From: Acidobacteriota bacterium
GTDB lineage: Bacteria > Acidobacteriota > Blastocatellia > RBC074
Length of the DNA: 64,000 bases
Direction: 5' to 3'
Assembly (NCBI GenBank): GCA_016196035.1
Contig: JACPYM010000035.1
Coordinates: 1-64,000 of the forward strand
Shown here: in pieces, positions 11,208 through 61,847 of the stretch
Layout of the letters: each line of letters starts with the position of its first letter
Position numbering within the stretch: the stretch's first letter is position 1
Notes under the pieces: generated by a model
Seen by the model: the letters and a program-made list of their open reading frames with translations, nothing else
Told to the model about the DNA's origin: nothing
Databases searched by the model: none
Program-made: the position numbers and the translations under genes

Positions 11208-11388
11208 TAGGTCGGATTCAATTGCGTGTACGGTAAGGGTGCGTAACTCTGGGACAGTACCGCGCGCGTGAGCAAGCGGGGCCTGCGTCGCTACTCCAGT
11301 GCGCCAAACTTGACGCGCCGCTTGCTCACGCGCGCGGTACTGTCCCGTTGCGCGGCTTTTGCCCTACCCCGAAGTGAAAACCGATCTA
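11208..11388. repeat. Palindromic element family 1, copy A
   Basis: A 181-bp imperfect palindrome. Its ends are TAGGTCGG and CCGATCTA, and its inner arms GGGACAGTACCGCGCGCGTG and the complement form a long stem around a loop ending in TTGACGCG. The outer arms carry ATTGCGTGTACGG on the left and CCCCGAAGTGAAAACC on the right. It belongs to the seven-member family in this window and lies between the PIG-L and amidohydrolase genes. The 5' frame of the amidohydrolase reads through it, which is why the longest frame gives a false N-terminus. Confidence 0.85.
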
Positions 11389-11486
11389 TTGCTACGAACG
11401 TGAGTGCGAAAGGCGCGCCTTCGCTTCATTCTGCTTGCCCTTTGACTGCGCTCAGATTGATCGAATCTCGAACCAGGACGACCCTT

Positions 11487-12794
11487 ATGAAACAACGTAC
11501 CTTGATCGTGATGTTTGTTGCTCTGTGTTTATTGAGCAACGTTTCGGCTCAGCAAAAGTATGACCTGCTCTTAAAAGGCGGCCACGTCATTGACCCTAAA
11601 AACAAGCTCAGCGCCGTTCGTGATGTTGCGATTGCGAACGGGAAAGTCGCCGCCGTCGCGGCCAACATCAATCCGGCTGAGGCGTTCAAAGTCGTGGACG
11701 TTGCGGGCTATTACGTTACGCCGGGACTGATTGATATTCACGTTCACGTCTTTGCCGGGATGGGCGAACGCGCTTCTTACGCGGGTGATAACAGCCTTTA
11801 TCCCGACGGCTTCACCTTTCGCGTGGGCGTCACTACCGTGGCCGACGCGGGCTGTGCGGGCTGGCGCAATTTCGAGGACTTCAAACAGCGCATCATTGAC
11901 CGTTCCAAAACGCGCGTGCTGGCTTTTCTTAACATCGTCGGTAATGGCATGCGCGGCGGAAAGTGGGAGCAGGATTTGAACGATATGGAAGCCCAGCCAA
12001 CAGCAGAGATGGCGCTGCGTTATCCGGGCTTGATCGTCGGCGTCAAGACGGCGCATTACGCTGGCCCCGAATGGGCACCGGTCGAACGCGCCGTCGAAGC
12101 GGGCACGAAGGCGAATATCCCGGTGATGGTGGACTTCGGCATCAATCATCCCGACACGCGCCCCTTGAGCGAACTCGTCACCAAGAAGCTGCGGCCCGGC
12201 GACATTTACACGCATGTTTTTTCGGGCTTGCGTAACGAACAACTCGAAAACGGCAAACTCAATCCCGCGCTCTGGGAAGCCCGCAAGCGCGGCGTGATCT
12301 TTGACGTAGGCCACGGCGGCGGCAGCTTCCTCTGGCGCCTTGCCGTCCCCGCGTTGAAAGAAGGCTTCGTGCCCGATTCGATTTCTACCGACATACACAT
12401 TGGGAGCATGAATGCCGGGATGAAAGACATGCTCAATGTGATGGACAAGTTTCTGGCAATGGGGATGTCGGTGGACGATGTGATTTCGCGCTCGACGTGG
12501 AACCCCGCGCGCGAAATCAAACGCGAAGACTTGGGCAATCTCTCCACTGGCGCGGTCGCAGACATTGCCGTGTTCAGTCTCGAAAAAGGCAAGTTCGGCT
12601 TTACCGATATGAACGGCGCACGGATGAAAGGCACGCAAAAGCTGACCTGCGAGTTGACGCTGCGCGACGGCAAAGTGGTTTACGATCTGAATGGAATCAC
12701 ACGGCCGGATTGGACTACGTTGCCGCCCAATTATCCGCGCGTAGGCGATGCCCGTTGGGATGCGGTGACGCCCGCCCCTCGTAGACCACAGTAA
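11487..12794 (+). CDS. Exported amidohydrolase/deacetylase family metallohydrolase
   Basis: A 435-residue protein with signal peptide (TLIVMFVALCLLSNVSAQ) and an amidohydrolase-superfamily TIM barrel. Seen are GLIDIHVHVFAG with metal ligands His85 and His87, VGVKTAHYAGPE (candidate carboxylated Lys near 188), GINHPDTRP, IFDVGHGGGSF and SISTDIH. This pattern matches the dihydroorotase-like EF_0837/AHA_3915 group, whose members are often encoded next to a SelA-like PLP enzyme, as here. The ATG at 11487 is chosen because it directly precedes the signal peptide. The longer frame is repeat-derived. Export of such an enzyme is unusual. Confidence 0.8.
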   Translation: MKQRTLIVMFVALCLLSNVSAQQKYDLLLKGGHVIDPKNKLSAVRDVAIANGKVAAVAANINPAEAFKVVDVAGYYVTPGLIDIHVHVFAGMGERASYAGDNSLYPDGFTFRVGVTTVADAGCAGWRNFEDFKQRIIDRSKTRVLAFLNIVGNGMRGGKWEQDLNDMEAQPTAEMALRYPGLIVGVKTAHYAGPEWAPVERAVEAGTKANIPVMVDFGINHPDTRPLSELVTKKLRPGDIYTHVFSGLRNEQLENGKLNPALWEARKRGVIFDVGHGGGSFLWRLAVPALKEGFVPDSISTDIHIGSMNAGMKDMLNVMDKFLAMGMSVDDVISRSTWNPAREIKREDLGNLSTGAVADIAVFSLEKGKFGFTDMNGARMKGTQKLTCELTLRDGKVVYDLNGITRPDWTTLPPNYPRVGDARWDAVTPAPRRPQ

Positions 12795-12819
12795 CGAGCC
12801 TGGCAATCATTTCAGGTAG

Positions 12820-13335
12820 TGCTAAAAATGTAGGGCCGAATTTGCAGTCGCGTTAGCGACGACCTGAATTTAGCCCGGCGTTTTCAACGCCGGGAAGACG
12901 ACGAAAATGCTTTGCGTCGCGTCAGCGACGCCTGAATTCAGGCGTCGCTGACGCGACGCAAAGATCACGCACCGGTTTTCCGTGGGTTGAAAACCTTGTC
13001 ATTACCCAAATCTTTCGCGTTTAGCGATTCGGGCTTTTGGCCCTGAAAGGGCTGTGGATATTAGCCAGTGGTGAAGCGCTGCGCGGAACCACCGGAAAAG
13101 ATGCCACCATTTTCGCGCCCTGAAGGGGCGCTGGGACCGAAGCTGATTTACGAATAAATCAGAGTCCGGCGTCCCAGCCGGGACGCAACCCCAAAAACGA
13201 CGCGGTTCCGGTGGTTTCACCACCGGCTAATGTCCGTCGCGCCTTCAGCGCGCAACTGAAAAGATTTGGGTAATGACAAGGGTTGAAAACCCACGGCTAA
13301 ATTCAACCGCCGCTAAGCGGCAAAATCATTGCGAC
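12820..13335. repeat. Mosaic of nested palindromes
   Basis: The 602-bp gap between the amidohydrolase and the SelA-like gene is almost wholly palindromic. Seen are GTCGCGTTAGCGAC (12847-12860), CCCGGCGTTTTCAACGCCGGG (12874-12894), the 54-bp palindrome at 12910-12963, and GCGCCCTGAAGGGGCGC (13115-13131). A pair of about 35-base arms (12980-13014 and 13261-13296) encloses 246 bases of smaller hairpins, including a GGTTCCGGTGGTTTCACCACC motif. No protein-coding signal was found. Confidence 0.8.
12910..12963. repeat. Perfect 54-bp palindrome without loop
   Basis: Every base of the 27-base left half pairs with the right half around a central GAATTC (12934-12939). The half-site contains TTTGCGTCGCGTCAGCGACG. 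It could be cruciform-forming DNA or a head-to-head joint of two identical repeat ends. Confidence 0.9.
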
Positions 13336-13396
13336 TTTACCTTTTATTACTACCAAGGGTTTTCGGTCGTAATTACGCATAGGAGGGACTTCATTT

Positions 13397-15031: not shown

Positions 15032-15154
15032 CATTTGGTGGATTGGGTCGGCAAATAGCACGAGCCTCAATTTTATCTTTGCGCGGTGAAGACTCTTTTG
15101 GCATTTGAATCCTCAGCCAGACGCAGACGCATTGCCTCTTTGGGTGAATTCAAC

Positions 15155-15263
15155 CTAGTACTCCATCAAGCTGTAAGTGATGGATGCTGAGAGCGCATCC
15201 GGGATGTAGGGCGGGATTAAATCCCGCCCTACATCCCTCATTTTCAGCTTGATGGAGTACTAG
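15155..15263. mobile_element. 109-bp CTAG-flanked palindromic element, copy 1
   Basis: Bounded by CTAGTACTCCATCAAGCTG and its inverted complement, with an inner near-perfect palindrome GGGATGTAGGGCGGGATT/AATCCCGCCCTACATCCC. It is identical over 109 bases to the element at 17505-17613 and in the same orientation. CTAG at both borders is consistent with a 4-bp target duplication. It has no coding capacity, so it is a MITE-like non-autonomous element. It lies 83 bases before the disrupted TIR-NTPase gene. The rest of the gap 15032-15346 shows nothing further. Confidence 0.85.
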
Positions 15264-15346
15264 ACTGCGCCCGTCTTTCAGCAGTACCCAAGCGCGTTTG
15301 CCCCGTCGCTTTTGTTTCAACCATATTCGCAGGATGGTTATTTTCT

Positions 15347-17855
15347 ATGACTACAAAACGCTTTCGCATTGCCTTCTCGTTTGCCGGAGAAAAACGGGCT
15401 TACGTAGCGCAAGTCCTTGCTCGCAGCCAAGTTTGGCAAAGACAAAATCCTCTACGACAAATATCACGAAGCCGAGTTTGCGCGGTATGACCTCGGCATT
15501 TACCTGCCCAAGCTTTACCGCGAGCAGGCCGATTTGGTCGTAGCCGTCATTTGCCCGAGCTACGATCAAAAGCAATGGACGGGTTGGGAATGGATGGCGA
15601 TCTATGCGCAACTCACCAAACGCGAAGGCCAAAACATCATGCTCACGAGGTTTGATTACGCGCAGGTTGAAGGACTGTTTGACGCGGCAGCCTTTGTCGA
15701 ACTCGATGAAAAATCGCCTGAACAAACCGCCAAGCTCATTCTCGAACGCCTCGCGCTGAACGAAAACAAACCGAAAGATCATTACACTAAACCTGCCGCT
15801 GAGCCGTCCGTACTCAAAACGGCTGTGCCGAATAATCTGCCGCGCTTGCAATCGTTCTTTGGCCGCACCGAAGAATTGAAACAGATTGCCGAAGCGCTTG
15901 ACCCTGAGGCGCGCACGTGGGGCGTGTTGATTGATGGGCCGGGCGGGATGGGGAAGACTTCGCTGGCGGTACGCGCGGCGTATGAATGCACGCTTGAGCA
16001 GTTTCAACGCATCATCTTTTTGTCGGTAAAAGACCGCGAGATGGAAGACGACGGCGAGCGCAAGCTGGTGGGGTTCATCCTGCCGGGCTTTTTAGAAATG
16101 CTCAACGAACTCGCCCGCGAATTGGGCAAGCCCGAAATCAACAAGTCACCCGAAGATCAGCGTGTCAAGTTGTTGCTCGAAGCGTTGCGTCCGGTGCAGG
16201 CGTTGCTGATTCTCGACAATCTCGAATCGCTGACCAAAGACGATCGCGACCAGCTTTTCACCTTCGTCAAACGCCTGCCGCAAGGTTGCAAGGCGATTTT
16301 GACCAGCCGCCGCCGCATCGGTTCTGGCTCTGAATTGCTGATTCTCGAACAACTCGACGAAGCCGCCGCGCTTGCCACGCTCGACGATCTGGCGCGACAC
16401 AACAAGTTGCTGGCGAAAACCAGCGAAGCCGAACGCCGCGCGTTGTACCAGCAAACCGGCGGCAAGCCGTTGCTGTTACGTTGGGTCGCCGGTCAACTCG
16501 GACGCGGAAGCTGTCGCACGCTGGCCGACGCGCTGACGTTTTTGCGCAATTGTCCGCCCGACAATGATCCACTCGAATTCACCTTCGGCGACCTGGCGCG
16601 CGACTTTACCGATGACGAAACCAAAGTGCTGTGCGCGCTCAGCTATTTCAGCCTGCCCGCTGAAGTTGAACATCTGGCCGAGTTGGCGGAACTGGAAAAA
16701 GCCGCCGCCGAGGTCGCGTTGCGCGCACTCGCCAATCGCTCGCTGGTGAATCCCGATCAGGAAGAAACGAATTTTGTGCTGGTGCCGATGGTGGCTGACT
16801 TCCTGCGGCGCGCGCAGCCTGAAGCCGTAGCGGAAACTGGCAACCGACTGGAAAAGCGCGCCTACGCCTTGATCGTAGAAAATGGCGGCCACGAAAATTA
16901 CGACCTCTTTCCGGTGCTTGACGCTGTGTGGCCTACGGTCTTGCCTGCCTTACCGCTCTTTATCGCAGGCCCGAATCAGCAACTCCAAACTATGTGCGAT
17001 GCGCTATCCAATTTTCTCAATTTTACGGGCCGCTGGGATGAATGGCTTTCCATAAGCCAACAAGCAGAATCCAAAGCCTTAGTGGCGAACGATTACGACA
17101 ACGCAGGTCGGCGGGCCTATCAAGCAGGTGCTGTTCATTCCCTACGTCGGCAGGCAGACGCCTTGCTGGCTTGTGCTGACCGCGCAGCGGCGCACTGGCA
17201 AACCGCTCATGCTCGTGCCCGCGAGCGTGCTATCGCCATTCGCTTGCGTGGTTACGGTTACCAGTTGAAGAAGGAATACTCCGCCGCCACCACCGCTTTC
17301 AGGGAAGCATTTATGCTTGATCGTAGCCTGTCCGCCGAAAGCGAGGATGTAGCCAACGACCTGAACGACCTCGCAGACACTGAACGACTCTCCGGCGATT
17401 TTACGGCGGCAGAGCGAGATTACTGTGAGGCGGTACGCATTGCCCGCGTTATCGGTGATGCCGAGGGGGAAGCCGTCTATCTAGGCAATTTGGCTGAATT
17501 AGTTCTAGTACTCCATCAAGCTGTAAGTGATGGATGCTGAGAGCGCATCCGGGATGTAGGGCGGGATTAAATCCCGCCCTACATCCCTCATTTTCAGCTT
17601 GATGGAGTACTAGGCCAGAAAGACTGGCCGCGAGCAGAGACGCTGGCGCGCGAAGCACTATCCTTGTCCGAAAAAGTAGGTCGTAAGGAATTGATTGCTC
17701 ATGACTGTAGTCGTCTTGCAGAGGCATTAATGCAGCAGGGACAGTCCGCCGAAGCTTTGCCCTATGCCCAACGTGCGGTGGAAATCTTCACCCGGCTCGG
17801 TGTCGCCCCAGACATCGAAAAAGCCCGTGCGACGCTGGACGAGTGCAAGGGCTGA
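15347..17855 (+). pseudogene. TIR-NTPase-TPR protein (STAND-like), frameshifted and interrupted
   Basis: The reading starts at ATG 15347 with TIR-like strand 1 (FRIAFSFAGEKRAYVAQV). It must shift frame near 15415 to continue as LLAAKFGKDKILYDKYHEAEFARYD in the +1-shifted frame. Then come a TIR-like core (VVAVICPSYDQKQWTGWEW), an NTPase with Walker A GPGGMGKTS and Walker B ALLILDNLES, winged-helix-like segments and TPR helices. At 17505 the 109-bp CTAG element is inserted and brings a stop. Removing 105 bases restores ELVLGQKDWPRAETLAREAL and continues to the stop at 17855. An intact relative would be a roughly 830-residue signalling or cell-death ATPase. Confidence 0.8.
17505..17613. mobile_element. 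109-bp CTAG-flanked palindromic element, copy 2 (in gene)
   Basis: Identical in all 109 bases to 15155-15263. It is inserted in codon-phase within the TPR region of the TIR-NTPase gene. Deleting one copy of CTAG plus the element (105 bases, a multiple of 3) rejoins GTT-CTA-GGC-CAG and restores the frame. That makes CTAG the most likely target duplication. IS5-group transposases use 4-bp CTAG-like targets, so mobilisation in trans by such an enzyme is a reasonable guess. No transposase gene was seen in the window. Confidence 0.9.
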
Positions 17856-17952: not shown

Positions 17953-18093
17953 CCTGGGCGCGTAGGCATCCTTGCCTGTCATAAGTAAATGCCGCGCAGC
18001 TTCCAAATCAGCACCTTCGCCAATGTAAGTAATCGAGATAAGGAGCGCTGTGCGACTTCTTTTCCAGCAGGCAAGGATGCCTGCGCTCCCAGG
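17953..18093. repeat. Palindromic repeat family 2, copy 1
   Basis: Left end CCTGGGCGCGTAGGCATCCT (17953 on) and right end ending GATGCCTGCGCTCCCAGG (18093) are inverted complements with a few changes. The variable base in GCATCC-T-TGCC is matched by A on the other arm. It lies in the 432-bp gap 17856-18287 downstream of the pseudogene, next to family 1 copy B. No gene was found there. Confidence 0.75.
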
Positions 18094-18149
18094 GGCAGCC
18101 GAAGGGGTTCTGGGTGCGCGAAACCGCAAATTGACAGCAGGAAAAATCT

Positions 18150-18287
18150 TAGATCGGGTTGCACTTCGGTGTACGGGAAAACCGTGCAGCGGGGCAGTAC
18201 CGCGCGCGTGAGCAAGCGGAGCTTTGGCGGTTCAGCCGAGCAGGCAAGGTTGACGCGCCGCTTGCTCACGCGCGCGGTACTGTCCCA
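18150..18287. repeat. Palindromic element family 1, copy B (right end missing)
   Basis: Starts TAGATCGG and has inner arms GGCAGTACCGCGCGCGTGAG and complement, with loop ending TTGACGCG. It stops after TGTCCCA exactly at the stop codon of the minus-strand Nif3-like gene, so the outer right arm ending CCGATCTA is absent. Either the end was deleted or the gene border was rebuilt. Confidence 0.8.
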
Positions 18288-19172
18288 TTACCCCTTGGGT
18301 CGCCAGAACGGGTCGCCGCCCGGCAGGTATTGAATCGGCACTTCGGGCACAAAGGTCTTCAGCCACTTGGCGCACTCTTCCATCCCGCGTTCTTCCGAAG
18401 GGACGTGGCCGAGGATGATGAAGCCTTTCTTTTTACCGGCGGTCAGCACGTCGCGGGCGTATTCGATCCCTTCCCATTCGCGGGTTTCCCCGATGACGAG
18501 GACGTCTACGGCGGGGTTGTCGAGGGCGGCTTTGATGCCGGGGAAGTTGTTGAAGCCGGGCGAGAGGGCTACGCGGCGGACGAGGAGTTGCGGGTCGCCG
18601 ATGACGCGCAGCGCGCCTGCTTTGAGGCTGGTTTGCATGCTTTGCGCAAGCTGGGTGAGCGTCGTCGCAGGCAGCGTGAACTGGCGCCGCTGGTCAGGGG
18701 AAAGATACTTTTCCCAGCCCAGCGCGGCGGCCATACCGGTGAAGACGCCATCGGGTTGGCGTGCGTGCCAGTGATCGTGGAAGCGCCAAACGACGAGGCC
18801 GTTCTTTTCGATAAAGTTGCGCTTGGTTTCGTAAATCTCGCCGCTCAAGGTCGCCGTTTCGTCGTTGTGGTTATAAAACGTCGGTTCGTGGACGATGAGC
18901 AGGTTCAGCCCGGCGGCGTGGGAGCGCTGGCATACGTCAAGCGTGGCGCTGAACGAAGTCGCGATGCCTTTGACGGCGTTGTCGGGGTTGCCGATTTTGA
19001 AGGTGTCTACGGTATCTTTGCGCCACTCAACGCCGACCTGTTTTTGGATGCGTTCGATGACTTGGCGCGCGGTGAGGGCGGTGCAGGCCGACGCGCGGTT
19101 GACGGCGTAAAGTCCGGCTCCGGCGGCGGCGAGAAAGTGGCGGCGTGAATAGGGCGTGTGCAGTGCGTTCAT
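18288..19172 (-). CDS. Nif3-like dinuclear metal protein with Tat signal
   Basis: A 294-residue protein. The N-terminus has SRRHFLAAAGAGLYAVNRASA, a twin-arginine signal (RR at 10-11). The rest matches the Nif3/YbgI type: LLIVHEPTFYNH with metal-ligand His, FHDHWHARQPDG, VALSPGFNNF, VDVLVIGETREWEG and IILGHVPSEERGMEE. Nif3 proteins form hexameric rings with a dinuclear metal site, biochemical role unsettled. The start at 19172 is preceded by GAAAGGA. A longer frame runs into the repeat at 19263-19353 and is rejected. It is convergent with the pseudogene and divergent from recQ. Confidence 0.8.
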   Translation of the reverse strand: MNALHTPYSRRHFLAAAGAGLYAVNRASACTALTARQVIERIQKQVGVEWRKDTVDTFKIGNPDNAVKGIATSFSATLDVCQRSHAAGLNLLIVHEPTFYNHNDETATLSGEIYETKRNFIEKNGLVVWRFHDHWHARQPDGVFTGMAAALGWEKYLSPDQRRQFTLPATTLTQLAQSMQTSLKAGALRVIGDPQLLVRRVALSPGFNNFPGIKAALDNPAVDVLVIGETREWEGIEYARDVLTAGKKKGFIILGHVPSEERGMEECAKWLKTFVPEVPIQYLPGGDPFWRPKG

Positions 19173-19262
19173 GGATGTCCTTTCGTGCTCGTTGGAAAGT
19201 TGGTGAATGTTGTGGGGAAAGTATCGGCGGTGTGGTGCGTTTGGTAAAGGTGGTCTTGTTGT

Positions 19263-19353
19263 TGTCCGACAAGCTGCCAGCTTGTCGCTGTCTTGGCTGG
19301 CGAACAATGGGTGCCACTGCCAAGCGTTCGACAAGCTGGCAGCTTGTCGGACA
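19263..19353. repeat. Inverted repeat family 3, copy 1
   Basis: Perfect 25-base arms (19263-19287, 19329-19353) built on GTCCGACAAGCTGCCAGCTTG. Each arm is internally palindromic. The 41-base loop contains GGCTGGCGAACAATGGGT, also seen in the copy at 28954-29044. It lies in the 227-bp divergent gap between the Nif3-like gene and recQ, so it may sit between or over their promoters. Confidence 0.85.
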
Positions 19354-19399
19354 GTCGCAGGCAGTTGCAGGAAAACATTTGTGCTAGACTTCGCGCCGC

Positions 19400-28828: not shown

Positions 28829-29168
28829 TAACCTTTGGAGTGCGGCGGTACGGCGCCGCTTTTCATTTGCGGCTAACTGGCGCAAGGGATTCTGAAGCCC
28901 TCAAGAGCAAACGAAAAGTGGGGTCGAGCGATACCGCTGGCGATGCGCCAAGTTGTCCGACAAGCTGCCAGCTTGTCGTGGTCGTGGATGGCGAACATTG
29001 GGTTTAACGGCCAGGCGTCCGACAAGCTGGCAGCTTGTCGGACATTCGCCAGCGGTATCTCGAGCCACGACGTGCCAGAGTGGCCCATCTATCGGGAACT
29101 GAGCTTGTCGGACATTCGCCAGCGGTATCTCAAACCACCGCACTCCAAAGACGCGGCGCGTCGAAAAG
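28829..29168. repeat. Composite repeat region between the BtrH-like and GH35-like genes
   Basis: The outer ends CCTTTGGAGTGCGGCGGTA and ACCACCGCACTCCAAAG are inverted. Inside lies family 3 copy 2 (arms 28954-28978 and 29020-29044), extended outward by GATACCGCTGGCGA and its complement. A 30-base segment beginning AGCTTGTCGGACATTCGCCA is repeated directly at 29032-29061 and 29103-29132. Upstream frames of the GH35-like gene run into this DNA. Confidence 0.8.
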
Positions 29169-39482: not shown

Positions 39483-39795
39483 CCTGGGAGCGCAGGCATC
39501 CGTGCCTGCTGGGAAAAAGTTGCGCCGCGTTCCTTTTTCTCAGCTTTGCCTCGGCCTAGATCGGCTTTCACTTCACTGTGCGGGAAAACCGCGCAGCAGT
39601 GCGGTACCGCGCGCGTGAGCAAGCGGAGGTTTGGCGGTTCAGCCAATGGCACAAGCTTGTCGCACCGCTTGCTCACACGCGCGGTACCGCACCAGCGCCA
39701 TCTGCCCCCGTATACGCAATTGCAAACCGATCTAAGTGGCGCTGCGGAAGCCACGCAGCTTCTTTTACAGCAGGCACGGATGCCTGCGCTCCCAG
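39483..39795. repeat. Palindromic repeat family 2, copy 2 (split by family 1 copy C)
   Basis: Left end CCTGGGAGCGCAGGCATCCG (39483 on) and right end ending GATGCCTGCGCTCCCAG (39795) are inverted complements. The variable base is G on the left and C on the right. The complete family 1 copy C lies between them, in the loop of this element. It fills most of the 400-bp gap 39432-39831. Confidence 0.8.
39557..39734. repeat. Palindromic element family 1, copy C (nested)
   Basis: A 178-bp element with termini TAGATCGG and CCGATCTA. The inner arms read GTGCGGTACCGCGCGCGTGA on the left and a matching TCACACGCGCGGTACCGCAC on the right. Both arms differ from the family consensus in a paired way. The loop ends in TTGTCGCA. 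It is located inside the family 2 copy at 39483-39795, showing it arrived later. Confidence 0.85.
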
Positions 39796-39831
39796 TATCC
39801 TGCCCATCCTGTCAAAATTTACCTGGACGGT

Positions 39832-47961: not shown

Positions 47962-48142
47962 TAGATCGGTTTTCACTTCGGTGTATGGCAAAAGCCGCGC
48001 AAGCGGGACAGTACCGCGCGCGTGAGCAAGCGGCGCTTCGGCGTTGCGCCAGTCCAGCTGTACTTGACGCGCCGCTTGCTCACACGCGCGGTACTGTCCC
48101 GGCGCGGCGCGCCTACCGTACACGCAAATGAAAACCGATCTA
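47962..48142. repeat. Palindromic element family 1, copy D
   Basis: A 181-bp element with both termini intact (TAGATCGG...CCGATCTA) and arms GGGACAGTACCGCGCGCGTG and complement around a 38-base loop ending TTGACGCG. It lies 115 bp after the ATP-grasp terminator. The longest frame of the CHAT gene starts in its right arm. Confidence 0.9.
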
Positions 48143-48283: not shown

Positions 48284-48423
48284 CCTGGGAGCGCAGGCAT
48301 CCCTGCCTGCTGGAAAAGAAGCCACGTAGCGCGCCTTTTTCCAAATCTAAAGCGGGCGGAATACTTGGTTAAGGAAGCTGCGCGGCTTCTTTTCCAGCAG
48401 GCAGGGATGCCTGCGCTCCCAGG
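48284..48423. repeat. Palindromic repeat family 2, copy 3
   Basis: Perfect 40-base arms (48284-48323, 48384-48423) with a 60-base spacer. The arms begin CCTGGGAGCGCAGGCATCCC. The variable base is C here with G on the other arm. It is close to the CHAT gene start and codes for a repetitive false N-terminus in the longest frame. The remaining bases of the 701-bp gap 47772-48472 contain the terminator and copy D and no gene. Confidence 0.9.
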
Positions 48424-51400: not shown

Positions 51401-51649
51401 GTCACGCGCGACATGATGATTGCCTACTATCGCGGTTTGCAGCAGGGCGAAGCGCGCGCCGCCGCCTTGCAGCAGGTGCAGTTGCGCATGCTGGAACGCG
51501 CCGAACGCGGGCTGACGCCCGATGGCCGCAAGCAGCACCCGCAACGCGCGCGCGATTACAGCCATCCGTTTTACTGGGCCAGCTTTATCCTCTCCGGCGA
51601 AGACGCCAAGCTGGATTGGCAGGGCGGTTCTCAATTGTCCATTCGCTAG
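48473..51649 (+). CDS. Exported TPR-CHAT domain protein (caspase-like protease)
   Basis: A 1058-residue protein. The GTG at 48473 has GGAAGAA seven bases upstream and directly precedes a signal peptide (LRAWRCVFVTALVCSWFALG). An N-terminal beta domain is followed by about nine TPR units with the LGPAHPEVASAL pattern (about 160-480) and a coiled stretch. The C-terminal CHAT domain (about 720-1045) has the catalytic His in ILHIATHGFF and Cys in VVLSACDTGVGEVKTGEG. CHAT proteins are caspase-fold peptidases activated through TPRs. The TAG stop is also the first three bases of family 1 copy E. Confidence 0.85.
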   Translation: MQLRAWRCVFVTALVCSWFALGSGLGWLSVHANDFAELVVGQPVEAVLTGSEPHSYPLALMAGQYVEAVVEQRGVDVIVTLQGPDGKALAQFDTDKRPRGREVAAHIVNATGAHRLLVETRATEVMAGQYTIQLVALRAATAQDRSLQEARSQSAEVQRLISAGKFPEAQPLAERALAGQEQVLGPAHPEVASALTRLATILRNRRELARADTLNQRALAIAESTPEPGHPDLAQILSEMGALALSRADFVKAEPFYQRAIAIWEQTLGPNHPNVAKGLSNLASVYGQRGNYAKAEPALRRALAIREQALGAEHPDLNVTLTLLGNVYFAQKRYDQAAPYYQRVLRVLDQAPAQANPQQLIPVLNNLASIYTEQGKYAQAESLYRRLQPLQEKTLEPNHPQTLMTQFNLATLAAYEGDFARAQQLHQRVLLLREQTLGPDHPDVANSLRNLAHVYTAQGALTQAITTLARANAVIERNLAYNLTVGSESAKRAYLDTAAEETDRAISLHLRAAPKDAEAQRQALTVILQRKGRALDAMVDSLANLRRRATPEDRAPLDQLKTARTEIARQSLAGPPARTPLAEHRARIKALEEKREQLEDQISRRSAELRAQTQPVTLAAVQAAIPSEAALIEFASFRPFNARYTKQSEAYGAPRYVAYVLRHTGEPQALELGDQQTIDAAIERWRKALRDAHATEVKKYGRAVDRLVMQPLRPLLGQTRRVLLAPDGSLNLIPFAALVDGRNEYLIKRYHFSYLTSGRDLLRLQVKQPSRQGALIIANPDFGESAANASSTQRALVARPVIAPAEDGVSILSVAFFPALPGTAGEAAALKELWPDAAVYSAQQATETQLKQADGPAILHIATHGFFLPDATPGTRSAAADPLARLQLDNPLLRSGLALAGANQLKGGPTQEDDGIFTALEAAGLDLWGTRLVVLSACDTGVGEVKTGEGVYGLRRALVLAGSETQVMSLWPVSDAVTRDMMIAYYRGLQQGEARAAALQQVQLRMLERAERGLTPDGRKQHPQRARDYSHPFYWASFILSGEDAKLDWQGGSQLSIR

Positions 51650-51820
51650 AGCGGTTTTCACTTCCGTGTATGGGAAAACCACTGAACGGTGGGACGGTAC
51701 CGCGCGCGTCAGCAAGCGGAGGCGATGCCTTTATACCAAATCGCCTAACTTGACGCGCCGCTTGCTGACGCGCGCGGTACTGTCCCTACACGCTGCCCGC
51801 AAATGCAATTGTACCCTGAT
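51647..51820. repeat. Palindromic element family 1, copy E
   Basis: Starts TAGAGCGG at the stop codon of the CHAT gene. Arms GGGACGGTACCGCGCGCGTC and complement carry a GTC/GAC exchange (against GTG/CAC in A-D) on both arms. The loop ends TTGACGCG. The right outer arm is degenerate (GCAAATGCAATTGTACCCTG instead of GCAAATGAAAACCGATCTA). Confidence 0.8.
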
Positions 51821-52035
51821 GCAATGTAAAGAGTTCGTAAAGGGCTGGTTAAGCGTCAGTAAAAGAGCCTCAGCCGTGTGTAATCAAACAGCCGCTCCGC
51901 TCACTTAAGGCGTAGTGTGCAGCATTCCCCGCCCGCGCTTCAGCGGCGTCACGTAACACACCGATCTTCCAAAGGCTTTGGCCGAAGGCTATGGCCCCGC
52001 CCGCCTTCGACCCGACAACTCTAAAAGGTAATGCC
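51821..52035. other. Leader of the giant secreted protein
   Basis: Between element E and the ATG at 52036. GGCTTTGGCCGAAGGCTATGGCC forms a weak hairpin. Otherwise I see no gene or repeat. Confidence 0.45.
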
Positions 52036-55000
52036 ATGCAAAATGCCCTCCCACGTGCGTTTTTGGTTACGCTGCTTTGCGCAGCGTTGATGCTGATGGT
52101 TTGGAGTCTTCAGCCCGTGCCTTGGCGTGTGGCCAAGTCCGCCGCCGCGTTCAACGTCATCACTGTCACGACCGCCAATGACGTTTACGGCGAAGATGGT
52201 CATTGCTCGTTGCGCGAAGCCATCGAAGCGGCCAATACCAATACGGTAGTTTGGGAATGCGCCGCCGGGGTCAGCGGCCTGGATACGATTCAATTCAATC
52301 TGGGCACGGGGACGCCGGTGATTAACGTGTCCATGTCCGCCTTACCGAACATCACCGAGCCGCTGTTGATTGATGGCGCGACGGGCGGCGCGACGCGGGT
52401 GGAGTTGAATGGTTTGGGCGCGGGGGCCGATGCCAGCGGATTGGTGGTTGACGGCGGCGGTACGACGATCAAAAGCCTGGTCATCAACCGCTTCACCGCT
52501 TTTGGGATTTACGTGCGCAGCAGCGGCAATGTGGTGCGGGACTGTTACATCGGCGTCAACGCGGCGGGCACAACGGCGCTGGGTAACATGTATGACGGCA
52601 TCGTGCTCGAAGGCGCTGACGGCAACACCCTCGGTGGAACAGTTGCGGGACAAGGCAATATGATTGCCGGCAATGGCAACAACGGCGTGATTCTGACCGG
52701 CTCGTCGAACAATCTGATCCAGGGCAATTTCATCGGCACGAACGCGGCGGGGGCGGCGCTGGGCAACGGCCAGGACGGCGTTCATCTGGATAGCATTGAC
52801 GCGCCTTCGACCGGCAATACGCTGGGCGGCACGGCAACCGGGGCGGGCAATACGATTACCTTTAACACCGGCAATGGGGTACTGCTCCAGGACAATGCGA
52901 CGCTCAACAACCGCCTCGCGTCCAATCTGATTTTTTCCAATAGCCTGTTGGGGATTGACCTTAAATCCGACGCCAAGTTCAGCGGCCAGACAACCGCCAA
53001 CGATGCAGGCGATCCCGACACGGGGCCGAACAATGTGCAAAACTTTCCGGTGCTGGCATCCGTGAGCGCCACAGGCACGATCAGCGGCACGCTTGACAGC
53101 ACGGCGGGCAACAGCGCTTATCCGGTGCGGCTCGAATTTTTTGCGAACGCCGCATGCGCTGCCAGCGGCAACGGTGAGGGCGAAGTCTATTTGGGTTCAA
53201 CGACGCTCGCCGCGCCGGGCAGTTTCACCTTCAACGCCACACTGGTCGCGGGCAAGAATTTCATCACGGCGACGGCCACCGACAACAACGGCAATACGTC
53301 TGAATTTTCGGCCTGCCGTATGGTGACGCTCAACAACGCGCCGACGATCACAGCCAGTTCGCCACTGGCGCGTCAGCAGGCCAGCCCCGGCTTCAATTCC
53401 CAAATTGCCACCGTCTCCGATGTTGAACAGGCCGCCGGTACGCTGACGGTGTTGGCCAACGACGAAACGCTTTTCACGCTCAATGGCGTGACCATTTCCA
53501 ACCTCGCCGTCAATGCCAGCGGCCAGGTGACAGCGGACTTGGTCGCCTCGTGCACAGCCACCGACGCCACCTTTACGCTGAAGGTGATTGATAGCCTGGG
53601 TGCGTCGAATACGGCGGCGCTGACGATCAACGTCACGGACAATGGGTTGCCCGTGTTGAATTACGCCGCGCAAACGGTGGCGGCGGGCGCGGCGTTGACG
53701 GTGAGTCCCGCGGCGGGGCCGAACGATAACGGTGCGGTCAGCACGATTGCCTTGCTCAGTCAGGGCACGTATACGGGAACGATCAGCGTCAACAACGGCA
53801 CGGGCGTTGTTTCGTTCAGCAATGCGAAGCCGGGCGGGACGCATACGATCACTCTGCGCGTAACCGACAATTGTGGTGCCTCCACCGATGCCTCCTTCTC
53901 GTTAGAAGTGACCTGCCCGACAATCTATCTAGGCCCGGCAGACTTGCCCAGCGGCACGACGACGGCGGCTTACAGCGAGACGCTCACGGCCAATGGCGGC
54001 GTGGGGCCATACACCTTCAGCACGGGCCGCGACCCGTTGCCGCCGGGATTGAGTTTGTCTTCGAGCGGCTTGCTGAGCGGTACGCCCAGCTCGGCGGGCG
54101 TCTTCAATTTTGTCGCCGTCGCGACGGACGCGAATGGTTGCGTGGGAAATCGCGCGTACACCCTGCTGGTCAATTGCGTTACGTTCACGCCAACCAGCCA
54201 TGACTTCGATGAAGTCGGCGGCACGGGGACGATCAATCTCAGCGCGCCCGGCGGTTGCACCTGGACGGCGGTCAGCAATGCCGCCTGGATCACTGTCACC
54301 GGCGGCGCGAGCGGCGCGGGCAATGGCACGGTCAGCTATACGGTCGCGGCGAACGCGGGCAACGCACCGCGCACCGGCACGATCACCATCGGCAACAATC
54401 TTTTTGCCGTGGAGCAAGACGCGCCCGGCGTCGAACTGGAAGAGGATTTAGGCAACGGACTTCCGCCCGGTTGGACGGTGGTGGATGAAGGCGTGGGCGG
54501 CGGCAATGCGGCCACCTGGACGACGGCCAATCCTTGCAGCCAGTCGTTTCCGTCGTTGATCAATGGCCCGTTTTTGAGCGTGGATGTCTCGTGCTCCGGC
54601 CCGGGTTCCGTGCAGGATGAATTTTTGCTCCTGCCGCTGCTCAATCTCAGCGGCGCAGGGCGCGTGGTGCTGCAATTCAGCACGCAATTCAAATTGGATT
54701 TGGGGCCGACGCACACCGGCGATGTGGATGTCAGCCTGAATGGCGGCGCGAGTTGGGTCAATGTTCTGCGCTTGCAAACTGCCGATGCCACGCCTGTCAC
54801 GAAAAGCGTTGACCTAACCAGCGCCATTGCCGCCAGCCCTGCCAACGTGCTGCTCCGGTTTCATTACTACGGGCAATTACCAGCCCGGCCCGGCGCGGGC
54901 AAAGGGGGGAATCGGCCCACCGGCGGCACCGATGTCATCTGGCCGATTGATAACGTGGTGCTGCACAGTTACGCCATTGACCCGGCCAGCGTGAACGTGG

Positions 55001-57675
55001 CCGTGGCGGGCGGCAGCGGTAACATCAATGTCCAAGTCGCCAGCAACACCGTTTGGACGGCGCAAAGCAACGTCGGTTGGATTACGGCGCTCACGACGGG
55101 CGGTACCGGCAGCGGCTCGGCGGCCTATCGCGTGGACGCCAATCTGACCGGCGCGCCGCGCACGGGCACCATGTTTATCGCGGAAAACGTCTTCACGGTG
55201 AATCAAGCGGCTTGCACGGCGCTGGCGTTGACGCCCACCAGCCTGAACAACGGCGCGCTGGGCACGACATTCAACCAGTCGCTGAGTGCCAGCGGCGGCA
55301 CGGCTCCTTACGACTACTCCATTCTCAACGGCGCTTTGCCCAACGGCGTCAGCTTTACGGCGGGCGGCGTGCTGTCAGGCACTCCCACGCAAACCGGCGC
55401 GTTCAATTTCACCGTCAAGGCGCAAGACGCGGTCGGTTGCACGGGCACGCAGGCCTATACGTTGACGATCAATTGCCCGGCCCTCAGCGTGAATCCCGCG
55501 ACACTTGGAGCCGCCACAGCAGGCGCTGCCTTCAATCAAACGTTCACGCAAACCGGCGGCACGGGGGCAATTGCCTGGAGCTTCACGGGCACGCTGCCTG
55601 CGGGGTTGACGCTGAATGCCGCGACCGGTGAATTGGCTGGGACGCCCAGCGTGACAGGCAATTTCAGTTTCACCATCACTGCCACCGATGCCAACAACTG
55701 CACGGGCAGCCGCGCCCTTTCGCTGACGGTCAACTGTCCGACCATCACGCTGACGCCCGGCAATCTAACCAACGGCGGTGTCGGCCTGCCCTATAACCAA
55801 ACGATTTCAGCCAGTCCGGCGGGCGCGTATAGCTACACTGTGACGGCGGGGAACTTGCCTGCGGGGCTGACGCTCAACAGTTCGACAGGCGTGCTCAGCG
55901 GTACGCCCAGCACGGCGGGCGCGGCGAATTTCACGATCACGGCCACCGGCTTTGGCGCCTGTGTGGGAAGTCAGGCGTATGCACTGACCACCAATTGCCC
56001 GGCCATCACCGTGAATCCGGCGACGCTGGGAGCGGGCACGGCGGGTACCGCATTCAGCCAGACGTTTACGCAAACCGGCGGCAGCGGCACGATTATTTGG
56101 AGTTCCACCGGCGCGCTGCCTGCGGGCCTGACGCTGAACGCCGTGACCGGTGAACTGGCCGGAACGCCCACCGTGGCGGGCAATTTCAGTTTCAACATCA
56201 TCGCCACGGACGCCAACAACTGCACGGGCAGCCGTTCACTTTCACTGACGATCAACTGTCCGGCCATCACGCTGACGCCCGCCACGCTGTCCTCCGGCTC
56301 CGAAGGCGCGCCTTACAGCCAGGCCCTGACGCAAACCGGAGCGACGGGCACGGTGACGTGGAGCGTCAGCGCGGGCACGTTGCCCAACGGGCTTTCGCTC
56401 AACGCGGGGAGCGGGTTGCTCTCCGGTTCAACTTTGGCGGCGGGCACGTTTAACTTCACGGTGCGCGCCACAGGCGGCAATGGTTGTTTCGGCGAGCGGG
56501 CCTATGCGTTGGTGGTGGCGAATTGTCCGGCGCTCACACTCACGCCCGGTTCGTTGCCGAATGTTCGTTTGGGCAATGCCTACAGCCAGACGCTGACGGC
56601 CAGCGGCGGTCAAACGCCCTATGCCTTCAGCGTGACGACAGGCATCTTGCCGACGGGCGTCACACTTGCCACAAATGGATTGCTGGCCGGGACGCCCACG
56701 CAAAGCGGGACATTCGCATTTACGGTGACGGTGCGCGATGCCAATCATTGCAGCGGCACGCTGAGCTACACGCTGATGGTCGAACGTGGGTTGGTACAAG
56801 CCGATTTCGATGGAGATGGGCGCACCGATCTGAGTGTTTGGCGGCCTGGCAACGGGGCCTGGTATTCCCTCAACAGTTCCAATGACGCCGCGCGGGTACA
56901 GAGTTGGGGCGCGGGCTATGCGCCGTACAACGACGTCATCGTGCCGGGCGATTACGATGGCGACGGCAAAACCGATTACGCCGTTTGGCGCGGGCAGACT
57001 TCGGTTTGGTACATACGGCCCAGCGCCACGCCGGAGGCGCCTATCCTACGCGAATTCGGGGCGGCTTATGCGCCCTACTTCGATGTGCCGGTGCCGGGCG
57101 ATTATGATGGCGATGGCAAGACCGACATCGCGGTTTGGCGGCCCACCACGGGGACTTGGTTTGTGTGGAAGAGTTCCGATGGCGGCTATCTGATCACGGC
57201 TTGGGGCACACAGGGCGACATCCCGGTGCCCGGCGATTACGATGGCGATGGCAAGACCGACATCGCGCAGTGGCGGCCCAGCGACGGCGTCTGGTACATC
57301 AAAAACAGCAGCGGCGGAACGCAAATCATTGAATGGGGCGCGGGGGTTGCGCCGTACTTTGATGTGCCCGTGCCCGCCGATTATGACGGCGACGGCAAGA
57401 CCGATTGCGCCGTTTGGCGGAAACAGAGCGGCACCTGGTATATCCGCCAGAGCGCGGATGCGAAACCCCTGGTGCAAGCCTTTGGCGCACCCTACGCGCC
57501 ATATAACGACCTCGCCGCGCCGGGCGATTACGACGGTGACGGGAAAGCCGATATTGCCGTGTGGCGGTCATCCGACGGCAATTGGTATGTGCTGCGCAGC
57601 TCGACCGGCACGGCTTTGGTGAAAGCCTTTGGCCAACTGGGCGACATGCCGGTGCCAGCCAGCGGGGCGCGCTAA
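52036..57675 (+). CDS. Giant multidomain exported protein (CSLREA, He_PIG, BACON, VCBS)
   Basis: An 1879-residue exported protein. A signal peptide (RAFLVTLLCAALMLMVWSLQ) is followed by a CSLREA motif (EDGHCSLREAIEAAN, about 50-64) and a right-handed beta-helix region with repeated N-G/GN-T turns (about 90-330). Ig-like domains, one He_PIG domain, two BACON domains and a jelly-roll-like domain come next. Then come six consecutive He_PIG repeats (about 1055-1590), each ending in a conserved NCP, and six calcium-binding DxDGDGxxD VCBS repeats (about 1590-1879). It has a predicted calcium-stabilised surface or adhesive role. AAAAGGT precedes the ATG. Confidence 0.85.
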   Translation: MQNALPRAFLVTLLCAALMLMVWSLQPVPWRVAKSAAAFNVITVTTANDVYGEDGHCSLREAIEAANTNTVVWECAAGVSGLDTIQFNLGTGTPVINVSMSALPNITEPLLIDGATGGATRVELNGLGAGADASGLVVDGGGTTIKSLVINRFTAFGIYVRSSGNVVRDCYIGVNAAGTTALGNMYDGIVLEGADGNTLGGTVAGQGNMIAGNGNNGVILTGSSNNLIQGNFIGTNAAGAALGNGQDGVHLDSIDAPSTGNTLGGTATGAGNTITFNTGNGVLLQDNATLNNRLASNLIFSNSLLGIDLKSDAKFSGQTTANDAGDPDTGPNNVQNFPVLASVSATGTISGTLDSTAGNSAYPVRLEFFANAACAASGNGEGEVYLGSTTLAAPGSFTFNATLVAGKNFITATATDNNGNTSEFSACRMVTLNNAPTITASSPLARQQASPGFNSQIATVSDVEQAAGTLTVLANDETLFTLNGVTISNLAVNASGQVTADLVASCTATDATFTLKVIDSLGASNTAALTINVTDNGLPVLNYAAQTVAAGAALTVSPAAGPNDNGAVSTIALLSQGTYTGTISVNNGTGVVSFSNAKPGGTHTITLRVTDNCGASTDASFSLEVTCPTIYLGPADLPSGTTTAAYSETLTANGGVGPYTFSTGRDPLPPGLSLSSSGLLSGTPSSAGVFNFVAVATDANGCVGNRAYTLLVNCVTFTPTSHDFDEVGGTGTINLSAPGGCTWTAVSNAAWITVTGGASGAGNGTVSYTVAANAGNAPRTGTITIGNNLFAVEQDAPGVELEEDLGNGLPPGWTVVDEGVGGGNAATWTTANPCSQSFPSLINGPFLSVDVSCSGPGSVQDEFLLLPLLNLSGAGRVVLQFSTQFKLDLGPTHTGDVDVSLNGGASWVNVLRLQTADATPVTKSVDLTSAIAASPANVLLRFHYYGQLPARPGAGKGGNRPTGGTDVIWPIDNVVLHSYAIDPASVNVAVAGGSGNINVQVASNTVWTAQSNVGWITALTTGGTGSGSAAYRVDANLTGAPRTGTMFIAENVFTVNQAACTALALTPTSLNNGALGTTFNQSLSASGGTAPYDYSILNGALPNGVSFTAGGVLSGTPTQTGAFNFTVKAQDAVGCTGTQAYTLTINCPALSVNPATLGAATAGAAFNQTFTQTGGTGAIAWSFTGTLPAGLTLNAATGELAGTPSVTGNFSFTITATDANNCTGSRALSLTVNCPTITLTPGNLTNGGVGLPYNQTISASPAGAYSYTVTAGNLPAGLTLNSSTGVLSGTPSTAGAANFTITATGFGACVGSQAYALTTNCPAITVNPATLGAGTAGTAFSQTFTQTGGSGTIIWSSTGALPAGLTLNAVTGELAGTPTVAGNFSFNIIATDANNCTGSRSLSLTINCPAITLTPATLSSGSEGAPYSQALTQTGATGTVTWSVSAGTLPNGLSLNAGSGLLSGSTLAAGTFNFTVRATGGNGCFGERAYALVVANCPALTLTPGSLPNVRLGNAYSQTLTASGGQTPYAFSVTTGILPTGVTLATNGLLAGTPTQSGTFAFTVTVRDANHCSGTLSYTLMVERGLVQADFDGDGRTDLSVWRPGNGAWYSLNSSNDAARVQSWGAGYAPYNDVIVPGDYDGDGKTDYAVWRGQTSVWYIRPSATPEAPILREFGAAYAPYFDVPVPGDYDGDGKTDIAVWRPTTGTWFVWKSSDGGYLITAWGTQGDIPVPGDYDGDGKTDIAQWRPSDGVWYIKNSSGGTQIIEWGAGVAPYFDVPVPADYDGDGKTDCAVWRKQSGTWYIRQSADAKPLVQAFGAPYAPYNDLAAPGDYDGDGKADIAVWRSSDGNWYVLRSSTGTALVKAFGQLGDMPVPASGAR

Positions 57676-57702
57676 ACGAGAATTGCAGATTGCGGATTGG
57701 CG

Positions 57703-57844
57703 TAGCGGGACGGTACCGCGCGCGTCAGCAAGCGGAGGGGTGGGGTGCTCGGCCAATGGCATAAGCTTGACGCGCCGCTTGCTGACGCGCGCGGTACCAT
57801 CCCGGCACAAGGCGCTCCCGTAAACACAATTGCAAACCGCTCTA
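57703..57844. repeat. Palindromic element family 1, copy F (left end shortened)
   Basis: TAG is followed directly by CGGGACGGTACC: the outer left arm is deleted. The right terminus CCGCTCTA is intact apart from one base. Arms contain GTCAGCAAGCGG and complement, as in E. The flanks carry a further inverted motif AGATTGCGGATTG/CAATCCGCAATCT. It fills the gap 57676-57986. Confidence 0.8.
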
Positions 57845-57986
57845 GTGAATCCGCAATCCGCAATCTTGCTTCACCTCAGCAAAAGCCTTACCATCGCGGC
57901 GCTTTTCAAACGTTCGTTGCCCGCAGACGCTGTCAATTCGTAGGCAATTCAAATTTCAACCAAGCTCGAAAAGGGGGACTGCGCCG

Positions 57987-59099
57987 ATGCCGTTCGACAA
58001 CGCCTTCACACTCGGAATTGAAGAGGAATTTCAGATCATTGACCCCAACACGCGCGAGTTGCGTTCGCGCGTCAACGAGATGCTCGAAGAGGGTCAGATG
58101 ATCCTGGGCGAACAGGTCAAACCTGAAATGCACCAGTCCATGATCGAAGTCGGCACCGGCATCTGCGCCAACATCAAAGAAGCGCGTGCCGATGTGACTC
58201 GCTTGCGCCGCACCATCGGCGAACTCGCGCAACGCCAGGGTCTGGCGTTTGCCGCCGCCTCGACCCATCCGATTTCGCACTGGCAAGACCAGGAGATCAC
58301 CGAACACGAACGCTATTCGCAAATGATCGAAGAGTTGCAGCAATCGGCGCGCGCGCTGCTCATCTTCGGTATGCACGTCCACGTCGGCATGCAGGATCGC
58401 GAAGCCGCTATCGCCGTGATGAACGCCGCGCGCTATATGCTGCCACACGTTTACGCGCTCTCGACCAGTTCGCCGTTCTGGATCAAGCGCAACACGGGGA
58501 TGAAAAGTTACCGTTACGAAGTTTTCAAACAATTCCCACGCACGGGCATTCCCGAATACTTCAGTTCGGTGGGCGAATTCGACAACTTCGTCAACCTGCT
58601 GATCAAGACGGGCTGCATTGATAACGGCAAAAAGATTTGGTGGGACGTGCGCCCGCATCCGTTTTTCCCGACGCTTGAGTTCCGCATCTGCGACATCCCG
58701 ACCAAGGTGGACGAAACCATCGCCATCGCCGCGCTCATTCAGGCCATCGTCGCCAAGCTTTACAAACTCCATCGGCAAAATTTGAGCTTCCGGCTCTATC
58801 GCCGCGCTTTGATCGAAGAGAACAAATGGCGCGCGGCCCGTTACGGCCTGGACGGCAAGATGATTGATTTCGGTAAGCGTGCAGAAGTGCCCACGCGCGC
58901 GTTGATTAAAGAGTTGCTCGAATTTGTAGATGACGTGGTGGATGACCTGGGCAGCCGCGACGAGATCAATTACATCTACACGATTCTCGACAACGGCACG
59001 AGCGCCGACCGCCAGTTGCGCGTGTACCGCGAATCGGGCGGCGACCTGCAAGCCGTGGTGGATTTGCTGAAGAAAGAAACGCTGGAAGGCGTGATGTAA
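57987..59099 (+). CDS. Carboxylate-amine ligase (YbdK/GCS2 family)
   Basis: A 370-residue protein of the glutamate-cysteine ligase type 2 (YbdK) family. It has [19 protein letters not shown] (about 7-25), a typical N-terminal motif, then [25 protein letters not shown] (His pair) and [19 protein letters not shown]. YbdK-like enzymes couple a carboxylate to an amine with ATP. Elsewhere the gene is often near an ATP-grasp ligase. Here the ATP-grasp gene is 10 kb upstream with a CHAT and a giant protein gene between. AAAAGGGGGA precedes the ATG. Confidence 0.85.
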
Positions 59100-59120
59100 C
59101 GGGCGCACGGCAAAAATAGG

Positions 59121-59190
59121 ATTGCCACGGAGGCACAGAGCCACAGAGAGTTTCAAAAGAATACTCTGTGTCGCTGTGCCTCTGTGGCAA
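59121..59190. repeat. Inverted repeat GCCACGGAGGCACAGAG type
   Basis: Arms 59121-59148 and 59164-59190 pair at about 24 of 27 positions around a 15-base loop. It lies between the carboxylate-amine ligase and STAND genes. Some early frames of the STAND gene begin in it. Confidence 0.7.
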
Positions 59191-59233
59191 AGAGCCAGCG
59201 GCGGCCGCTCCTGTTAGGCCAGAAAATTTACCG

Positions 59234-61654: not shown

Positions 61655-61711
61655 TTAGCTGAAGCGTGTGGAGAATTAGAACCCAAGCCTTCAATCAGTT
61701 GAAGAGGCAGT

Positions 61712-61847
61712 GCCACCTGGGTACGCACCGCTTCCAGCGTGCAGACTTGGCAGCGGACGGGGTTGGCCAGTAGTTCTGATTTGACGCCTGCACGCTGGAA
61801 GCGGTGCGTACCCAGGTGGCCTGCGCCTCCCGATGCAAACCGATCTA
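61712..61847. repeat. Family 1-related element, subtype G
   Basis: Perfect 32-base arms (61712-61743, 61789-61820) with sequence CCACCTGGGTACGCACCGCT, unlike the other family members. Yet the 45-base loop ends TTGACGCC and the right terminus is CCGATCTA with preceding GATGCAAA, as in copy C. It lies in the 296-bp gap 61655-61950. The left outer end is not recognisable. Confidence 0.8.

Follow-up and report, generated by a model that had tools for sequence, protein, structure and literature searches.

Pairs of inverted repetitive extragenic palindromic (REP) sequences, known as REP doublets or REPINs, are associated in bacteria with REP-associated tyrosine transposases (RAYTs, or TnpA_REP) (PMC3116915, PMC2817692, PMC8266576), and a survey that describes tyrosine transposases flanked by REPs or by long inverted repeats includes Acidobacteria among its cases (PMC3733652). 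The Correia and RUP elements are of another kind, being described as miniature inverted-repeat transposable elements (MITEs) derived from IS630 (PMC2817692). In Anabaena variabilis, dimers of the REP GTAG-15 lie inside long palindromes with TATAGGA...TCCTATA ends (PMC3733652). Here we describe palindromic elements in a stretch of 64,000 nucleotides from an Acidobacteriota bacterium (the window, positions 1 to 64,000 of contig JACPYM010000035.1), which belongs to contig C35 of a 9.59 Mb draft in 139 contigs that is 97% complete. It is highly probable, in our judgement, that most of these elements are two-layer composites in which a REPIN core sits within the shell of an IS630-type MITE, that they were amplified through the shell ends, and that the loop of the core flips in place.

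The initial annotation had listed seven copies of a single palindromic family in the window. Inverted repeats are indeed present at all seven coordinates, and the three of these palindromes that were folded had a stability far above that of their shuffles. The seven fall, however, into two families: the copies at 11208, 18150, 39557, 47962, 51647 and 57703 are one element (family I), whereas the one at 61712 has other arms and is another (family G). The six family-I copies have in common the arm GTACCGCGCGCGTSAGCAAGCGG and, on the plus strand, a loop of 38 bases (39 at 57703) that ends in TTGACGCG, or in TTGTCGCA at 39557. Outside this core they partly keep a pair of outer ends, TAGATCGG...CCGATCTA, and alignment of the copies shows an inner hairpin between outer arms that are either of kind A (GATCGGTTTTCACTTC...) or of kind B (GAGCGGTTTGCAATTG...); these outer arms form what we call the shell.

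All copies are read on the plus strand. Both outer ends are kept in copy 1 (11208-11388), copy 3 (39557-39734) and copy 4 (47962-48142). Copy 1 has a B-like left end, spelled TAGGTCGG, and an A right end around core arms at 11257-11279 and 11318-11340 and a loop at 11280-11317, so that its shell runs opposite to those of the other five family-I copies. Copy 3 has A on the left and B on the right, with core arms at 39604-39626 and 39665-39687; copy 4 has its core arms at 48011-48033 and 48072-48094, and its pair of end types, 180-181 bp apart, is also found on contigs C7, C8, C37, C45, C47 and C91. A clear left end is present in copies 2 and 5. Copy 2 (18150-18287; core arms 18197-18219 and 18258-18280) is without a right end and adjoins a minus-strand gene call that ends at 18288. 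Copy 5 (51647-51825, the right boundary being approximate; core arms 51697-51719 and 51758-51780) has a decayed right end, and its left end (51641-51655) gives the TAG stop to a long plus-strand reading frame ending at 51649. Copy 6 (57703-57844; core arms 57713-57735 and 57775-57797) keeps a right end of type B and no left end. Copy 7 (61712-61847), the family-G REPIN, has arms of 33 bases that are 100% complementary (61712-61744 and 61788-61820) and shares with the family-I outer ends the 14-base end TAGATCGGTTTGCA; these are the outermost 14 bases of the right shell end, at 61834-61847, and they score 11 bits over the full 27-base matrix described below. The loop of copy 7 also contains TTGACGC, as in family I; this is a short motif, present on either strand in 3 of the 27 family-G loops in the sequence examined, copy 7 included.

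The family-I repeat is far beyond chance in this genome, where its arm is matched with at most three mismatches 346 times forward and 342 times in reverse, against 0 for the reversed control pattern; the family-G arm has 139 and 142 matches. In a sample of 2.40 Mb (15 contigs whole or in part, the window included) we counted 121 family-I arm groups, made up of 95 inverted pairs and 26 single arms. The arms start 61 bases apart in 65 of the 95 pairs, and the variable S position is complementary between the two arms of an element in 85. The core is made of two inverted 23-base REP-type repeats around a loop of about 38 bases and is a REPIN-type hairpin of the kind processed by RAYT transposases, which are single-tyrosine enzymes of the HUH (histidine-hydrophobic-histidine) class. 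A direction was assigned to 79 of the 95 pairs; left out were 16 pairs (7 with an atypical loop length and 9 with a score margin below 8 bits) and the 26 single arms. As seed of the orientation matrix, 54 loops with an end like TTGACGCG were used, and bare copies with unlike loops have less sure directions. Two of the 79 copies lie inside predicted genes.

The initial annotation had proposed a kinship with REP/RAYT systems and a search for a RAYT or IS200-type gene, and such a gene was found. Among the 15 Y1/HUH transposase genes examined, one (G000:C64:88282-88821) lies between family-I repeats, at distances of 10 bp on the stop side and 53 bp on the start side, and its reading frame is open. 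The chance of finding repeats within 60 bp on both sides, over 15 Y1 genes, is about 7e-5 if copies fall anywhere and about 0.004 if they are confined to the 14% of bases that are intergenic. The product of this family-I RAYT gene matches PF01797 (Y1_Tnp) at 29.3 bits, against a cut-off of 23, and H99, H101 and Y159 are invariant in ten aligned sequences of the 21 RAYT loci, Y159 being the putative catalytic tyrosine. The kinship extends to the seventh copy, since its arms flank a RAYT gene on C59 whose protein reaches 87.1 bits with the NCBIfam REP transposase model NF047646 and matches the TnpA_REP structure 4er8 (E 1.2e-9); to judge from these matches, the core of the seventh copy is that of a second RAYT family. 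The closest foreign homologue found of the family-I RAYT (59%, in genome G149) has at its flanks a repeat, GTACGGGGAGCGTMAGCGACCTG, that is related to that of family I without being the same, as would be expected if gene and repeat change together.

Four further Y1 genes have repeats of their own on both sides, namely those on C59 (family G), C70, C97 and C18, the last (L203) with a single arm on one side. These four Y1/RAYT-type genes are loci L040, L041, L044 and L203, L044 having one copy about 310 bp away. Loci L031-L034, L036-L039 and L043 were rejected as partner RAYTs, as neither family-I arms in their vicinity nor like palindromes on their two sides (exact arms of at least 11) were found. 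Locus L043 (G000:C29:237232-237471) scores 83.3 bits with NF047646, against a cut-off of 80, but no flanking palindromes were found there. L035 was also rejected, its two sides carrying unlike inverted repeats, one of them of the C18 type and about 560 bp off.

Outside this genome, the exact family-I arm occurs in 37 stretches of named species genomes, most of them titled as Acidobacteria metagenome-assembled genomes (MAGs). With at most one mismatch it is present in 4 of 162 genomes of the class, all of the window's own family; among relatives, G151 has 77 family-I arms and G153 has 20. In the Acidobacteria genome Go_SlAct_bin_180 the arm forms three direct repeats with a period of 39 near contig ends (L063 3033-3133 and L074 3978-4078), in contrast with the usual inverted pair.

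The outer layer belongs to a different mobile element, one that was absent from the proposal in the initial annotation. Both outer ends are present in 41 of the 79 copies, one in 16 and none in 22. When the outer end was modelled as a weight matrix of 27 bases, 136 sites in the 2.40 Mb scored above 13 bits, while the sequence in reverse yielded 2; a family-I arm lies within 130 bases inside 110 of the 136, a share that is biased upward because the matrix was trained on 100 family-I ends of the same sequence. The remaining 26 sites include family-I remnants, a family-G element (C91:167867), elements with other cores, an IS630 end on C117 and a few possible chance matches. Other cores found in such shells include those with GTAGTCCCGGC, with arms of the AGTTCCGCC type, with TCAGTAGCCCGCGCGTAAGCAAGGGC and with ACCGGTAGGGAGCG, and a nearly empty shell of 64 bp lies at C66:95275. 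The shell ends, TAGAKCGGTTTKCAMTT..GTGTACGG, carry TA at both outer edges in a YTAR context: of 51 elements with two ends, 43 have TA at each edge, 49 have C or T as the preceding base and 50 have A or G as the following one. At C11:82167 a filled site reads TA...TA where the repeat hosting the element otherwise has a single CA.

The origin of these ends is indicated by a matrix site of 29.6 bits at C117:66053, which a decayed DDE_3 transposase of this genome adjoins with its 3' end. A search with an open 76-residue piece of this transposase found relatives in 28 of 158 genomes of the class, and 30 relative loci were scanned for shell ends around the IS630-type transposase matches. In four of them (L248, L249, L250 and L275) both shell ends are present at 33-43 bits, 1.01-1.02 kb apart, and in L254 and L274 both score 20-31 bits; at the 24 remaining loci there is a single end, or the ends are weak or absent. 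Between the ends of L248 and L249 lie a helix-turn-helix (HTH) domain and DDE_3, as two separate reading frames. DDE_3 was confirmed in both, and HTH_Tnp_IS630 scores 24.2 against a cut-off of 21.3 in L248 and 20.0, just below it, in L249. The shell ends are those of IS630-type elements, and by this identity the shell is a MITE of an IS630-type transposon, presumably mobilised in trans by an IS630 transposase. Of the four DDE_3 matches in the genome, the decayed one on C117 alone has a shell end; those on C1 and C65 were rejected as partners of the shell, being without good matching ends.

In the window's family the shell is not tied to one core. We read 26 relative loci, among which some are one element read twice, and by eye most shells surround a hairpin whose sequence varies. 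Within the family members, at loci L276-L305, the central hairpins in most of the IS630-type shells read are of many unrelated sequences, such as GTAGCGCGGATTACTAATCCGCGCTAC in G146.

The REPIN core might alternatively be a dead passenger, all amplification being due to the IS630 shell and the RAYT having no present part. At least one shell end is found in 57 of the 79 copies, and matches to the shell-end pattern number 333 in this genome against 0-12 in each of ten family members. Shells of 96 bp with one end type are found at C5:94997-95092, C34:78031-78126, C86:84432-84527 and C88:157327-157422; that on C88 was read and has lost most of its core, the others being known by coordinates, and together they suggest a derivative poor in core sequence that spread nonetheless. 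In G151 and G153 family-I repeats are present with no RAYT homologue detected at E <= 0.001, so that either the repeats are maintained without the gene, or it has been lost or escaped detection. Against a dead core, REPINs without either shell end are frequent, at 22 of 79, and their loops vary more; the family-I RAYT has an open frame with the same repeats on both sides. We consider this explanation rather unlikely, and prefer a composite in which both layers have been mobile.

The loop of the core does not keep a fixed relation to the shell. The direction of the loop, which the initial annotation had taken from its asymmetric end, was compared with the outer arms in 37 of the 41 two-ended copies (the four excluded being two A-A, one B-B and one that pairs B with an unclear end), and it faces one way in 24 and the other way in 13. 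In a tree of shells and loops, 9 changes of direction are needed (8-9 over bootstraps), against a mean of 10.9 when shuffled, with 66-72 of 500 shuffles as low; the starred branches alone force 3 changes. Two pairs of near-twins have opposite loops: C33:81572 and C64:64524 have in common the distinctive shell variant GTGGATGGGAAAAGTTGCGC and 95% of the loop, and C91:10577 and C91:187593 likewise share a shell variant and 97% of the loop. The core therefore appears to invert in place, and a loop that flips relative to its outer arms is no safe marker of direction. Small inversions at hairpin loops, in which a loop between inverted arms flips in place, occur in chloroplast DNA; the present case differs in being a bacterial multicopy mobile element.

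Opposite orientations of core and shell could also have arisen through separate captures of REPINs. Related loops are found both bare and shelled (for example at C29:75389 and C88:28583), so more than one capture is possible. However, the junctions between core and shell are alike in both orientations, which would require each separate capture to have taken place at one and the same junction; moreover, near-twins with the same shell and loop variants differ in loop direction. We regard separate captures as improbable and inversion in place as the better account of these copies.

The placement of the copies brings up a third alternative, that the elements are kept as terminators or as structures at mRNA 3' ends and take their direction from the genes. 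Of 78 copies, 23 lie in convergent gaps, which hold 12% of intergenic bases, and 8 in divergent gaps, which hold 25%, so that the former are favoured and the latter avoided; the hairpins are strong. REPs elsewhere have been described as preferring unidirectional and convergent gaps (PMC3733652). But the loop has no orientation relative to the nearest gene (39 in the same direction and 39 opposite, n=78), the arm is present in only 4 of the 162 class genomes, and the same placement is expected if insertions into promoters are removed, with which the preference for convergent gaps and avoidance of divergent ones fits. A role of this kind seems to us a little less probable still than separate captures.

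The initial annotation had taken the common direction of the window copies as a sign of orientation-biased insertion. The six family-I copies do agree in direction, but for six copies the chance is 2 in 64, the agreement was noticed after the fact, and in the window the shells stand five to one in direction while all six loops agree. On the wider scale the numbers are even. The asymmetric loop end together with the arm has 131 forward and 146 reverse matches genome-wide, the 96 exact matches are divided into 48 plus and 48 minus, and the 79 oriented copies of the sample into 39 plus and 40 minus. Contig direction being arbitrary, tests within contigs are needed: among the 96 exact matches the same direction was found in 22 of 38 neighbour pairs (18.8 expected, p 0.20), and in the sample 104 of 188 pairs agreed within contigs against 92.9 when shuffled (p 0.06-0.07); once the contig of the window is taken out, the figures are 89 of 173 and 86.1 (p 0.32). 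We used GC skew as a stand-in for the replichore in this draft, where contig skew is weak (-0.036 to +0.035) and small biases are possible. The loop lies along the G-richer contig strand in 41 of the 79 copies (95% interval 0.40-0.63) and in 13 of 22 bare REPINs, and the shell does so in 30 of 53 cases. As far as GC skew represents the replichore, the orientations are thus balanced, the outcome that the initial annotation had named as refuting its reading, and a bias above about 63 percent is excluded in the sample. Loop direction has no link to GC skew or gene strand in the sample, and the common direction of the window copies looks like chance. Orientation-biased insertion of a REP or IS200-type element on one replication strand, as in IS200/IS605, is thus very improbable despite the agreement of the six window copies and the slightly high within-contig agreement, since the direction bears no relation to GC skew, gene direction or contig and varies relative to the shell.

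For the composite we infer the following course, both as to which enzyme moved which copy and as to how the loop inverts. REPINs of more than one family would have inserted centrally into a short IS630 MITE, a position at which both shell ends are spared. The family-I composite, of about 180 bp, would then have spread through the shell ends with an IS630 transposase acting in trans, supplied by a copy since decayed or from elsewhere, while bare REPINs would have been spread by the RAYT. Between the long inverted arms the loop may flip repeatedly, by strand switching or by recombination at the hairpin, and repeated flipping would leave its direction random with respect to replication, transcription and insertion.

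Several observations weigh against this reading. For the core, besides the repeats of G151 and G153 without a detected homologue, the start-side repeat of the C64 gene is atypical, with arms 155 bases apart; the family-I RAYT reaches 25.5 bits with NF047646, against a cut-off of 80, and its profile matched no REP transposase structure in a search of solved structures. The two window arms that were folded form a 4-bp stem, a 2x2 mismatch (GC/AA), a 2-bp stem and a tetraloop, but for these single arms an equally good fold is reached by 50 and 27 shuffled sequences in 200, the related arm of G149 does not fold like them, and the arm at L230 is an 11-bp stem. The tetranucleotide head is GTAC, not GTAG, in families I and G; GTAG is described as present "most often" in REPs (PMC8266576), and the GTAC head is a variant and not an exclusion from REPINs. 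For the shell, no intact IS630 transposase with shell ends was found in this draft genome, and the TA duplication is read from the ends and from one fairly clean comparison of filled and empty sites, two other nested cases aligning loosely. For the inversion, the tree is short and of modest support, with 8 starred branches among the 34 inner ones, and a few bases from beyond the element are contained in its rows.

Nested insertions support, at the level of sequence, the entry of the element as a unit. Copy 3 interrupts a member of a third palindrome family (CCTGGGAGCGCAGGCATCC...) at 39483-39798 and sits in its loop; unoccupied relatives lie at 48284-48423 and 17953-18095, making three window copies in all. 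This case (39557-39734) and that at C11:82167 favour insertion of core and shell together. For orthologous empty sites in family members, one 9.2-kb piece was compared, and no match of flanking genes ran across either element.

The window holds some further repeats. A 125-bp repeat, 96% identical, is found at 15139-15263 and 17489-17613, with the self-complementary GGGATGTAGGGCGGGATTAAATCCCGCCCTACATCCC in each copy; a small family with palindromes of the GTCCGACAAGCTGGCAGCTTGTCGGAC type occurs at 19261-19365 and 28952-29056 (and 29102); and inverted repeats lie at 5829-5934 (49-nt arms, 94% paired) and 12984-13291 (43-nt arms, 79% paired). A reading frame of 1894 residues at 51991-57675 has in its 3' part five 86-nt repeats reading GDYDGDGKTD-like (translated by hand), which we take to resemble FG-GAP/VCBS repeats.

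More generally, and only tentatively, the IS630 ends in this family of Acidobacteria may serve as a shell of general use in which one hairpin core can be exchanged for another, the central slot being entered time and again by REPINs from several RAYT families and by other palindromes. Such elements would be double agents, movable by both DDE and HUH transposases, with a core that flips often, and it may be the loading of such a hairpin that enables a 60-bp MITE to amplify. Differently cored shells, bare cores and nearly empty shells occur in one genome, and therefore both the question of which layer spreads and the help that a hairpin may give to a short MITE are testable. The loop sequence is unsafe as an orientation marker for palindromic repeats, since it appears to invert inside the element. 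The family also shows clearly how two transposition systems of unrelated kinds can be nested within a single short element; it offers hundreds of copies for comparison, and its outer layer is tied to a named type of transposon. Among the titles and abstract beginnings listed in searches of the open literature, which mostly excludes subscription journals, we found no description of REPIN cores in IS630 shells or of REPIN loop inversion.

Compared with the described systems, the core is like the REPINs or REP doublets with RAYTs in its inverted REPs, variable spacer, hundreds of copies and intergenic position, and also in the Y1/HUH gene with the same repeats on both sides (PMC3116915, PMC2817692, PMC8266576); the 2x2 mismatch in the predicted fold of the window arms resembles the bulge described for the REPs of E. 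coli. It differs from the systems as described there in its GTAC head, in that most copies lie inside the ends of another element, and in a family-I RAYT diverged below the NCBIfam cut-off. The shell is like the IS630-derived Correia and RUP elements in its TA edges, inverted ends of about 25 bp, lack of coding capacity and full-length IS630-type relatives, and unlike them, as they are described, its centre is filled by REPINs or other hairpins of several families (PMC2817692). REP dimers within longer palindromes are already known, and the composite described here is a variation on known kinds, for which the GTAG-15 dimers of A. variabilis are the closest published precedent (PMC3733652). In that species no outer palindrome was found that lacked REPs, and the section describing it names no other core and no transposon (PMC3733652). 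The shell of the present elements, in contrast, is tied to IS630-type elements, holds several different cores and also occurs nearly empty.

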